Positions 3,535-42,188 of a DNA stretch of 51,458 nt are shown one piece after another. The notes beneath the pieces are model-generated. The model saw only the letters and a program-made list of their open reading frames with translations, searched no databases and was not told where the DNA came from. Position numbers and translations under genes: made by a program. The DNA comes from Thermotogae bacterium (GTDB lineage Bacteria > Hydrothermota > Hydrothermia > LBFQ01). The stretch spans positions 1 through 51,458 of the forward strand of contig JAADDJ010000018.1 in NCBI GenBank assembly GCA_013153965.1. The letters are read 5' to 3'. Position 1 is the stretch's first letter; each line of letters opens with the position of its first letter.

Positions 3535-4143
3535 ATGCTGCTCTTAGTCGTTTCCCAGTACGATTGGGAGGCCGATGAGTACTACTACGAGGAGATAAGA
3601 CGCAGGGGCAAATACGTACTGTTGGCGGTAGGGTACGGCATATACACCACCGGGGACAAGCCCCAATCCGCCATGGGATACGTGGGGATAAGGACGACCC
3701 GGCTTGAGGATCCCCGAGCCTACTTCACCTTCCTCGGAGGTGGAGGGTACTCCTTCACGCACGACCTCCTCTACGGTCAGGGTGGGATCCTCTACGAGAG
3801 GAGGACCCAGAGGTTCGGGGGGAAGCTGGCTTTCCATCTCGGTATAGGCCTCATGGCGGGATACTACTCTTGGCAGGACGGCTCCACCCCCCTCGGGGAC
3901 AGCGGCATAACCAAGAGCAACGCCATAATGTTGGAGTTTCCCATAAGGGCGGCCATGAGCCTCAGACTCGGCTCCTTTGAGTTCGTTCCCGAAGTTCAGG
4001 CCGTCCCCTCCGCGAGCATAGACTTTTACAAGGCCTTCACCGTTAGGGGCCTCCTGTACGTCATGTACGGACAGGAATCGGAGTCGGAGTTCTTTGAGGC
4101 CCGGCGAAAGAAGAAGGAGATGGAGTACAAAGAGCTCAAGTGA
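3535..4143 (+). CDS. beta-barrel-like envelope protein, 202 aa
   Basis: No named family is recognised. The protein starts with seven hydrophobic or small residues (MLLLVVS) directly followed by QYDWEADEYYYEE, like a minimal signal peptide with glutamine at the first mature position. The rest is built of amphipathic strands with Gly/Tyr turns, followed by a charged C-terminal tail (EARRKKKEMEYKELK). The start cannot lie upstream, because the TAG of the -10 hexamer at 3520 is in frame. The stop overlaps the start of the next gene (GTGA), so the two are probably translated in a coupled way. Confidence 0.6.
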   Translation: MLLLVVSQYDWEADEYYYEEIRRRGKYVLLAVGYGIYTTGDKPQSAMGYVGIRTTRLEDPRAYFTFLGGGGYSFTHDLLYGQGGILYERRTQRFGGKLAFHLGIGLMAGYYSWQDGSTPLGDSGITKSNAIMLEFPIRAAMSLRLGSFEFVPEVQAVPSASIDFYKAFTVRGLLYVMYGQESESEFFEARRKKKEMEYKELK

Positions 4144-4910
4144 ATCTTCCCGGGGACTTTCTGACCCTCCTCCCCCCGCCGGTCGTTTGGGATGAGGGGA
4201 GGGTGCGCGAATATGTAGGCGAGGCGGAGGCTCTGGTATCCAACTTGGGCGGCGATGTGGCCGTGAATGTGCCGGAGGTCGTGAGGTTGAGCCGAAGGCC
4301 GAGGCCCTTCCCCTTCACGGAGAAGATGGACCTGCTGGAGTTCGGACGGCTCCTGAAGGGTAGGGGTCTGGACGTGTATCTTGATCGCCACTTCCCCCTC
4401 CTCCCGAAGGAGAAGACCTTAAGGTGGATGGAGGAGGCGAAGACCGTGGCCGATGGGGTAGTGGTCGTCGGCAGGATCCTCTCCGACTATCCCTATCCGG
4501 GGTACGACGTTGAGGAGGCCATATCCTTGGCCCGACGGATCTTCCCCCATGTGGGCGCCATCACGATAATAAACCGTCCGAACGAGGAGGTTCGCGCATG
4601 CTCAAAGGTGAGGGCGGGGGCGGATTTTCTAATATCGCAGATTACATTCATGCCCGAGGAGGTGGAGAGGTTCGTCATAAAGCTCAAGGGCGCGTGCGGC
4701 GGGAGTTTCCCGAGACTCTACGTCAGCGTGGCCCCGGTCTTCGGGGAGGAGGAGCTTCAACTCCTGCGATGGATGGAGGTACCCATCCCCAGGCGTATCC
4801 CACCTCTAAAAGCCTTGGCCGAGAGGATGAGGGAGATACCCGGCGTGGCCGGCATAAACTACGAGCATCTAAGATATTCCAACGTTGGAAGGCTCCTCGG
4901 AGGTCCTTAG
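4140..4910 (+). CDS. methylenetetrahydrofolate reductase-like (MetF-superfamily) protein, 256 aa
   Basis: The central part resembles the TIM barrel of MTHFR: a DYPYPGYDVEEAISLARRIF segment, followed by AGADFLISQITF and a downstream PVF. In the family these correspond to the repository strand and the GADFxxTQxxF motif. Family members reduce 5,10-methylene-THF with FAD; whether this short version (usual length about 290) still does so is uncertain, as the N-terminal flavin-binding residues are not clear. The start is GTG 4140, overlapping the previous stop in a GTGA. The 3' end overlaps the convergent Rrf2 gene by 42 bases. Confidence 0.5.
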   Translation: MNLPGDFLTLLPPPVVWDEGRVREYVGEAEALVSNLGGDVAVNVPEVVRLSRRPRPFPFTEKMDLLEFGRLLKGRGLDVYLDRHFPLLPKEKTLRWMEEAKTVADGVVVVGRILSDYPYPGYDVEEAISLARRIFPHVGAITIINRPNEEVRACSKVRAGADFLISQITFMPEEVERFVIKLKGACGGSFPRLYVSVAPVFGEEELQLLRWMEVPIPRRIPPLKALAERMREIPGVAGINYEHLRYSNVGRLLGGP

Positions 4911-5321
4911 ATTGGCCTCCTCAATTATCCCCTCTATGGTGATGTCCGAGAGGATGTCCGTTATCCTCTCCTGAACCTTGTTCCAGACCCCTCGGAGTAT
5001 GCAATCGGAGACGGGTATGTAGCACTCCACGTGCTCCCCCGGGACCAGACACCTCACCAATCCGTACTTGCCCTCAACCGCCTCTATCACGTCCAGAACG
5101 GTTATGCTCTCGGGAGGCTTGGCCAGAACGTATCCTCCCTTCTTCCCCCGTATGCTATTGACGAGACCCGCCCGGCGCAGTCGTACCAGTATCTGCTCCA
5201 AGAAGTTTATGGGGATCTTCTCCAACGAACTTATCTGGGGGACGCTCATGGGAGATTCGGCCAACGCCAAACGGACGAGGGCCTTTATGGCGTATTCAAC
5301 CCGAAGCGTGAATTTTAACAA
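4869..5321 (-). CDS. Rrf2/IscR-type transcriptional regulator, 150 aa
   Basis: A winged helix-turn-helix regulator of the Rrf2 family. The N-terminus LKFTLRVEYAIKALVRLA matches the family start, residues 26-60 form the HTH and wing (QISSLEKIPINFLEQILVRL, RGKKGGYVLAK), and residues 74-83 match the LDVIEAVEG linker. Cys91, Cys100 and Cys107 correspond in number and order to the three [2Fe-2S] ligands of IscR, with slightly wider spacing, so it probably senses Fe-S or cysteine status. The start must be TTG 5321, because the next ATG would remove the first helix. That TTG lies 2 bases after the 3' end of tRNA-Cys on the same strand, with no room for a promoter or a Shine-Dalgarno. Confidence 0.88.
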   Translation of the reverse strand: MLKFTLRVEYAIKALVRLALAESPMSVPQISSLEKIPINFLEQILVRLRRAGLVNSIRGKKGGYVLAKPPESITVLDVIEAVEGKYGLVRCLVPGEHVECYIPVSDCILRGVWNKVQERITDILSDITIEGIIEEANLRTSEEPSNVGIS

Positions 5322-5323
5322 AG

Positions 5324-5397
5324 AGGTGGCGCCGGGATTTGAACCCGGGAATAGCGGATTTGCAATCCGCCGCCTTAGACCGCTTGGCTACGCCACC
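5324..5397 (-). tRNA. tRNA-Cys (GCA)
   Basis: A 74-base cloverleaf: acceptor GGTGGCG / CGCCACC, anticodon stem GCGGA / TCCGC with loop TTGCAAA (anticodon GCA), T-arm CCGGG TTCAAAT CCCGG. The discriminator is U73, the usual identity base of tRNA-Cys. CCA is not encoded. The Rrf2 regulator starts 2 bases after the mature 3' end. Confidence 0.97.
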
Positions 5398-5407
5398 GCG
5401 AGTTCTT

Positions 5408-5413
5408 ATTATA
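5408..5413 (-). promoter_or_regulatory. -10 element TATAAT for tRNA-Cys
   Basis: TATAAT on the minus strand ends 10 bases before the mature tRNA 5' end. This leaves a leader of about 4 bases for RNase P. It probably also drives the Rrf2 gene behind the tRNA. Confidence 0.75.
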
Positions 5414-26314: not shown

Positions 26315-26320
26315 ATTCTA
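26315..26320 (-). promoter_or_regulatory. -10 element TAGAAT for dnaE
   Basis: TAGAAT on the minus strand ends 7 bases before ATG 26307. The -35 position is poor, and the AT-rich imperfect palindrome begins about 20 bases further upstream. Confidence 0.65.
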
Positions 26321-26403: not shown

Positions 26404-26477
<74 letters not shown>

Positions 26478-41536: not shown

Positions 41537-41842
41537 TCATAGGCGGAGCCTGTCCGCCCAACGGCCAACTATCGGCAGAGGCTCAACGTGGCCGCTCGCC
41601 GCCTTCACCATGCCGAATATGGTCAGATATATGAGGAATATGAGACCCACGGGGGCGAGCAGGGCCCATCCCACCAAGGGGACGAACCTCCAAACGAAGA
41701 GCCAGAGCAACCAGAGGGTTGATAGGACGAATCCCTGCCTTATGTGGAAGATGACGAACTTGTCCTTCGGCAAAAAGAGGATGAGGATGAAGAGGAAGGG
41801 GAGGTAGGCCATGGCCCCGAGGATGCGACTTCTCAAGCTCAA
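41537..41842 (-). CDS. small membrane protein, DUF4870-like, 101 aa
   Basis: Three hydrophobic helices (residues 9-24, 37-55, 58-78) and the segment FVIFHIRQGFVLSTLWLLW match the pattern of DUF4870/Tic20-like small membrane proteins. Their function is not known. The start is TTG 41842, overlapping the gatC stop by 4 bases (TTGA). A GGGAG 6 bases upstream serves as ribosome site, so it is co-translated with gatC. Confidence 0.72.
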   Translation of the reverse strand: MSLRSRILGAMAYLPFLFILILFLPKDKFVIFHIRQGFVLSTLWLLWLFVWRFVPLVGWALLAPVGLIFLIYLTIFGMVKAASGHVEPLPIVGRWADRLRL

Positions 41843-42099
41843 GTCTTTCTCCCTATGGGGGATATGAAGCGGATGAATCTGCCCTCCGTGTCCGGAGCGA
41901 GGGCGTAGATGTCCGGATAGGTGTCGCCCGGCTCATCCTCACGGAGGGGAGCGGCCCTCTCAACGACCGAGAGCATGGGCTCCACGTCGTCCGGAATACG
42001 AGACAGGATGGCTATGAAATCCAAAATCTTCAGGAGATCCTCCTCCATCTCGTCATCGGCCTCCACACGGGCAAGGGCGGCTATCCTGCTGACGTCCAA
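41839..42099 (-). CDS. gatC: Asp/Glu-tRNA amidotransferase subunit GatC, 86 aa
   Basis: GatC is the small scaffold of the GatCAB complex, which converts Glu-tRNA(Gln) to Gln-tRNA(Gln). Visible family features are DVSRIAALARVEADDEMEEDLLKILDFIAIL at the N-terminus, then VEPMLSV, PLREDEP, and a C-terminal APDTEGRFIRFISPIG. The start is TTG 42099, because the family match begins at the next codon and the sequence just before it is tRNA-Gln. The TTG follows the discriminator base of the tRNA with no base between. gatA and gatB are not in the window. Confidence 0.9.
   Translation of the reverse strand: MDVSRIAALARVEADDEMEEDLLKILDFIAILSRIPDDVEPMLSVVERAAPLREDEPGDTYPDIYALAPDTEGRFIRFISPIGRKT
41849..41853 (-). 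promoter_or_regulatory. Shine-Dalgarno GGGAG for DUF4870-like gene
   Basis: GGGAG on the minus strand lies 6 bases before TTG 41842, inside gatC, and supports the TTG as start. Confidence 0.65.
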
Positions 42100-42171
42100 C
42101 TGGGGCGGGAGGACTCGAACCTCCACTACCAGATCCAAAGTCTGGCGTGCTACCGATTACACCACGCCCCA
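42100..42171 (-). tRNA. tRNA-Gln (TTG)
   Basis: A 72-base cloverleaf: acceptor TGGGGCG / CGCCCCA, anticodon stem CCAGA / TCTGG with loop CTTTGGA (anticodon TTG), T-arm GGAGG TTCGAGT CCTCC, discriminator G73. It has the U1-A72 pair that bacterial GatCAB uses to recognise tRNA-Gln. CCA is not encoded. gatC begins at the base after G73. Confidence 0.97.
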
Positions 42172-42182
42172 GTGAGGAGGAA

Positions 42183-42188
42183 ATTATA
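42183..42188 (-). promoter_or_regulatory. -10 element TATAAT for tRNA-Gln and gatC
   Basis: TATAAT on the minus strand ends 11 bases before the mature tRNA 5' end. No other promoter precedes gatC, so the tRNA and gatC probably share it. Confidence 0.75.

Follow-up and report, generated by a model that had tools for sequence, protein, structure and literature searches.

tRNA-Cys directly before an Rrf2 regulator gene: a probable case of tRNA punctuation with leaderless mRNAs in the Caldipriscus lineage

In animal mitochondria the tRNAs punctuate the transcripts: the mRNAs are leaderless, and excision of the tRNAs is taken to make the mRNA 5' ends. Bacteria have operons of the type of E. coli tRNA-tufB, where a tRNA and a protein gene lie on one transcript and the protein gene keeps a leader and a Shine-Dalgarno (SD) sequence. 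Deinococcus-Thermus and Actinobacteria are known to have leaderless genes with a start-adjacent -10 box (PMC12340547, PMC3160421), the leaderless share in Deinococcus-Thermus being about 30% on average (PMC12340547); neither of the two papers mentions tRNA. Our literature search on bacterial tRNA punctuation or tRNA-derived leaderless mRNAs, outside which the subscription literature lay, yielded papers on mitochondria, on archaeal snoRNAs and on leaderless genes in general, and no others. In it we met no earlier account of bacterial leaderless mRNAs made by tRNA excision, though this does not prove that none exists.

The window analysed here is a stretch of 51,458 nucleotides from a genome (G000) of 1.53 Mb in 63 contigs. 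The named relatives of this genome that a protein search finds belong to candidate division WOR-3 and Candidatus Caldipriscus, apart from one record labelled Thermotogota. An earlier note on this DNA had remarked on a tRNA-Cys two bases before the TTG of a three-cysteine Rrf2 gene and, adding tRNA-Gln and gatC as a second case, had suspected a principle rather than chance. We consider it quite likely, on comparative grounds, that the pair is an instance of lineage-wide tRNA punctuation, in which tRNA and gene would share a transcript and maturation of the tRNA 3' end would yield a leaderless mRNA.

The tRNA-Cys/Rrf2 pair

The elements of the locus are as follows.

5408..5413, minus strand: -10 box TATAAT of the putative tRNA-Cys/Rrf2 transcription unit, invariant before the tRNA in 8 of 8 family genomes
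5324..5397, minus strand: tRNA-Cys(GCA) without encoded CCA, discriminator U73 at 5324 (Rfam RF00005, 67.6 bits; ARAGORN)
5322..5323, minus strand: two-base spacer, C5323 and T5322, between discriminator and start codon (from the sequence)
4869..5321, minus strand: Rrf2-family regulator of 150 aa with a TTG start and three conserved cysteines, predicted to be read as a leaderless mRNA (ORF, family models)

ARAGORN bounds the tRNA at 5323-5397 on the minus strand, versus 5324-5397 by the Rfam model. The regulator's TTG (5321-5319, minus strand) is the first start codon past the upstream in-frame stop, and the same holds at the five relatives' loci listed. Between the tRNA and this TTG there is no -10 box, the nearest being the TATAAT upstream of the tRNA. 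The pair, TTG included, is present in all eight genomes of the family (candidate division WOR-3 / Caldipriscus), and in each of the seven besides G000 the closest Rrf2 (54-74% identity) stands behind tRNA-Cys with a TTG start. Coordinates, family models and conservation all bear out the adjacency first remarked on. The gap from discriminator to TTG is 1 or 2 bases across the eight genomes; a variation by one base puts the tRNA in different frames, and hence outside the Rrf2 reading frame. No tRNA was found close to Rrf2 at 22 loci of more distantly related members of the phylum. Some Rrf2 genes of other families of the class (L010, L012, L013, L014), all tRNA-free, have by eye a TTGAC...GTCA-like repeat beside the start, possibly an autoregulatory operator; no such repeat was seen at the tRNA-Cys of the window's family.

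What kind of regulator is it? By its scores it appears to be an ordinary Rrf2 member, well above the cut-offs of PF02082 (E 7.5e-37, 126.9 against 30) and TIGR00738 (128.1 bits against 73.3), and it is the sole Rrf2 detected in G000. It shares with the Rrf2/IscR regulators the fold family, the domain and three conserved cysteines (C91, C100 and C107, invariant in 7 aligned members), and among solved structures its sequence comes closest to a BadM/Rrf2 protein (4cic), followed by IscR (4chu, 4hf1) and CymR. It differs from IscR and CymR in scoring far under both equivalog cut-offs (TIGR02010, 94 bits against 207.55; NF047409, 75 bits against 195) and in having its own cysteine spacing, C-X8-C-X6-C. 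Fe-S sensing is a putative function, suggested by the three conserved cysteines.

The five relatives' loci inspected have no conserved genes downstream of Rrf2. Its neighbours there are a convergent MTHFR-like gene in three, and nuoH, an isochorismatase-like or a subtilase-like gene in the others (names by eye). We note that the window too has an MTHFR-like gene, just under the Pfam cut-off, at 4140-4910 on the plus strand, with a 42-base convergent overlap with the Rrf2 3' end; a similar gene converges on Rrf2 at loci L076 and L079.

Abutting genes and leaderless signals in the order

Is the arrangement peculiar to tRNA-Cys? We compared four genomes of the order (G000, G004, G006, G009) with two outgroups of the phylum (G018, G052). 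A coding start lies within 4 nt of the tRNA 3' end for 58 of 171 tRNAs in the order versus 2 of 90 in the outgroups (Fisher P 2.6e-10), so that, as in mitochondrial punctuation, many genes have coding starts directly at tRNA 3' ends. The counts by genome are 11/41, 11/47, 21/41 and 15/42 in the order, and 0/45 and 2/45 in the outgroups. Elsewhere the samples are small: no such start was seen among the few tRNAs of eight further families of the class, G011 (same order) has one, and in G010 (also of the order) a -10 box and an ATG sometimes follow the tRNA instead. A second class of genes has a T-run and then an ATG at a gap of 6-10 from the tRNA. The layout recurs at other tRNAs of G000 and of its relatives, at about a third of the tRNAs in the four genomes; it looks like a lineage trait, and the suspicion of a principle rather than chance is supported. 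The window itself holds the second case and a contrasting one.

42183..42188, minus strand: -10 box TATAAT of tRNA-Gln and gatC (from the sequence)
42100..42172, minus strand: tRNA-Gln(TTG), discriminator G73 at 42100 (ARAGORN, Rfam)
41839..42099, minus strand: gatC, TTG start at 42099 right after the discriminator, gap 0 (TIGR00135, 39.6 bits against a cut-off of 47.1, aligned from residue 2)
26404..26477, minus strand: tRNA-Arg(TCT), the contrast case, with the next gene about 90 nt off and having its own -10 box (ARAGORN)
26315..26320, minus strand: TAGAAT -10 box; the ATG (26307) of a DnaE-like gene, so named by eye, follows 7 bases on

The tRNA-Gln/gatC abutment is real and is kept in G004 and G006. 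The DnaE-like gene behind tRNA-Arg reads as a leaderless gene with a promoter of its own.

The start codon of the abutting genes is TTG in 41 of 58 cases versus 80 of 750 elsewhere (P 6e-24), an excess that is overstated by start choice, as the background favoured ATG and abutting genes took the first start. One might think, the trailers being T-rich, that these TTGs are chance codons and that the real starts lie downstream. Yet of the start codons that fall in the first 5 trailer bases, 66 of 76 in the order open an ORF of 50 aa or longer, versus 3 of 25 in the outgroups (P 1e-11), and only 8 of the 66 ORFs have an in-frame ATG in codons 2-12. Homology also reaches the proposed N-termini: MurA, L33, L28, GatC, PRPP synthetase and MnmA align to orthologues or family models from residue 1-5, and in G004 and G006 the orthologues that follow the same tRNA match from residue 1 on, despite an altered gap and start codon. 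In the case of purB, an ATG at gap 7 in G000 and G004 is replaced by a TTG at gap 0 in G006. We give chance TTGs almost no credence.

How, then, are these genes expressed? Across 451 kb of G000, TANWAT boxes are most frequent 15 to 12 bases before the start codon. When all genomes are scored in one way, the fraction of genes that have TANWAT at -17..-11 is 0.39 in G000, 0.31 in G004, 0.36 in G006 and 0.36 in G009; it is 0.15 in G018 and 0.06 in G052. SD sites are weak in the order's genomes, and the outgroups have an SD excess far above the order's (G018 0.41 versus 0.06 in the control, G052 0.35 versus 0.09). The genome at large combines a start-adjacent -10 box with little SD; because this combination is widespread, the order would rely heavily on leaderless initiation, and leaderless mRNAs are predicted to be common in it.

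In a leaderless mode, a gene that follows a tRNA has two options: a -10 box of its own, or a 5' end made by a cut exactly at the tRNA. An independent start site in or past the tRNA is conceivable, since a -10 box is enough for a leaderless promoter (PMC12340547), and closeness would then be mere genome compaction, CDS-CDS gaps being likewise short in the order's genomes. But TANWAT occurs at the required place in 0 of the 58 abutting genes versus 31-39% of genes at large, and the layout is missing from outgroups whose genomes are about as large, so that we regard separate promoters as very improbable. A -10 box does stand upstream of the tRNA for 53 of the 58; here also, with 0/58 versus 53/58, the genes behind tRNAs resemble those of mitochondria in lacking a separate promoter. 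The claim that the layout leaves no room for a promoter or a ribosome site, and implies one transcript, gains support from these counts.

A route through tRNA 3' maturation

None of the 45 tRNA genes of G000 encodes CCA, which makes an endonucleolytic cut after the discriminator the expected route of 3' maturation. In the order, 163 of 171 trailers have a U (T in the gene) at +1 or +2. In B. subtilis, a U no more than 2 nt from the discriminator stimulates RNase Z about 200-fold (PMC10100781), and the tRNA-Cys spacer has a U of this type. From the comparative evidence we infer cotranscription, an exact cut and leaderless translation from UUG, in the following manner. The tRNA-Cys and Rrf2 genes would be transcribed as one unit from the tRNA's TATAAT promoter. 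An endonucleolytic cut directly after discriminator U73, aided by the U at trailer +1/+2, would release an Rrf2 mRNA with the 5' end CU-UUG, to be translated as a leaderless message, the initiation mode that the lineage seems to use widely. The UUG start codon might use the same U residues that help the 3' cut. The tRNA would in effect stand in for the following gene's promoter and 5' leader; which tRNA is joined to which gene would be incidental at first and then inherited.

Three points go against this route. No RNase Z scores above the family cut-off in the 8 genomes; the relatives have only sub-cut-off metallo-beta-lactamase matches to it, and in G000 none was detected. P. acnes, we note, is without an obvious tRNase Z, yet tRNA 3' cuts are seen there (PMC3848588). 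The second point is that leaderless mRNAs elsewhere seldom begin with UUG (3% in P. acnes; PMC3848588), yet it is the start in 41 of 58 abutting genes here. The third is the class of genes with a T-run before the ATG, at which transcription may either terminate or read through. As to candidate enzymes, the best is a 237-aa metallo-beta-lactamase, which we rejected, as it is equally like Apyc1 and other hydrolases and is absent from G000.

With no processing enzyme found above cut-off, one may ask whether the transcript stays uncut, the tRNA fold serving as a structured 5' leader of a translated, tRNA-capped mRNA. With the start codon lying 0-2 bases past the acceptor stem, and no SD, a ribosome has no landing room, and each tRNA so kept would be lost to translation, yet this tRNA-Cys is the only one found in the genome. 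We think an uncut message unlikely, and prefer release of the mRNA by the 3' cut.

Partner genes and relation to described systems

Does the pairing of tRNA-Cys with this regulator matter? The earlier note proposed that a shared transcript would link cysteine decoding to Fe-S or cysteine regulation; on such a reading, decoding and Fe-S or cysteine supply would be controlled together. Conservation of the pair throughout the family, the three invariant cysteines and the lack of a second detected Rrf2 would fit such a coupling. However, at least 12 other tRNA-gene pairs are equally conserved, mostly without an amino-acid theme. Abutting pairs in G000 are Lys-murA, Val-nuoH, Ser-prs, Gln-gatC, Trp-rpmG, Gly-rpmB, Pro-cmk, Leu-DUF4321, Thr-DUF192 and Pro-GIY-YIG, to which Gly-mnmA, Thr-pdxT and Glu-purB add pairs with a T-run before the ATG; partner products include MurA, NuoH, L33, L28, Cmk, PRPP synthetase, PdxT, PurB and MurI, among others. 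Partners also appear exchangeable: PRPP synthetase stands behind tRNA-Ser in the window's family and behind tRNA-Ala in the sister family, nuoH behind tRNA-Val(CAC) in the window's family and behind tRNA-Val(GAC) in G006, and in the sister-family genome G009 it is an HMG-CoA-lyase-like (HMGL-like) gene that tRNA-Cys abuts. Nor does the tRNA-Cys promoter hold a conserved operator (across the 8 sequences nothing but TATAAT and two C is invariant), and the five relatives' loci inspected have no Fe-S or cysteine genes close to Rrf2. Functionally matching pairs are not enriched: among 20 own-genome pairs, 2 theme matches, defined generously and after the fact, compare with 0.70 expected by permutation (P 0.13). 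We have dropped the amino-acid theme, and the coupling of cysteine decoding to Fe-S or cysteine regulation, left unsupported, strikes us as decidedly unlikely.

One pair calls for a separate remark. At G000:C46:12564-13073 (locus L052) there are three tandem tRNA-Pro(TGG) genes, the second right before the GIY-YIG nuclease gene; these are possibly integration traces at a tRNA 3' end.

We think it likely, from the genome comparisons, that the Caldipriscus lineage of candidate division WOR-3, a free-living, heat-loving order, uses tRNA punctuation as a general mode of expression, about a third of its tRNAs supplying both the promoter and the 5' end of a leaderless mRNA, mostly with a UUG start, and that this is a bacterial counterpart of the mitochondrial system. 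If so, tRNA punctuation is not an organelle peculiarity: given widespread leaderless initiation, it can evolve on a bacterial chromosome too. A link between leaderless translation and tRNA processing would become testable, with cases where the rate of tRNA maturation sets mRNA output. Gene starts would be corrected as well, as TTG starts abutting tRNAs are likely miscalled by annotation that expects a ribosome site.

How does the proposed system compare with those described? With E. coli operons of the tRNA-tufB type it would have the shared transcript in common, and it differs in having no leader at all. The leaderless genes of Deinococcus-Thermus and Actinobacteria resemble about a third of the genes here, with a -10 box a few bases before the start; at the abutting genes a tRNA stands in the promoter's place. 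The likeness to animal mitochondrial DNA is that tRNAs directly abut coding starts. The differences are that the units lie dispersed on a bacterial chromosome of about 1.5-2 Mb and have a -10 box each before the tRNA, that only about a third of the tRNAs in the order take part, and that the start codon is mostly UUG.
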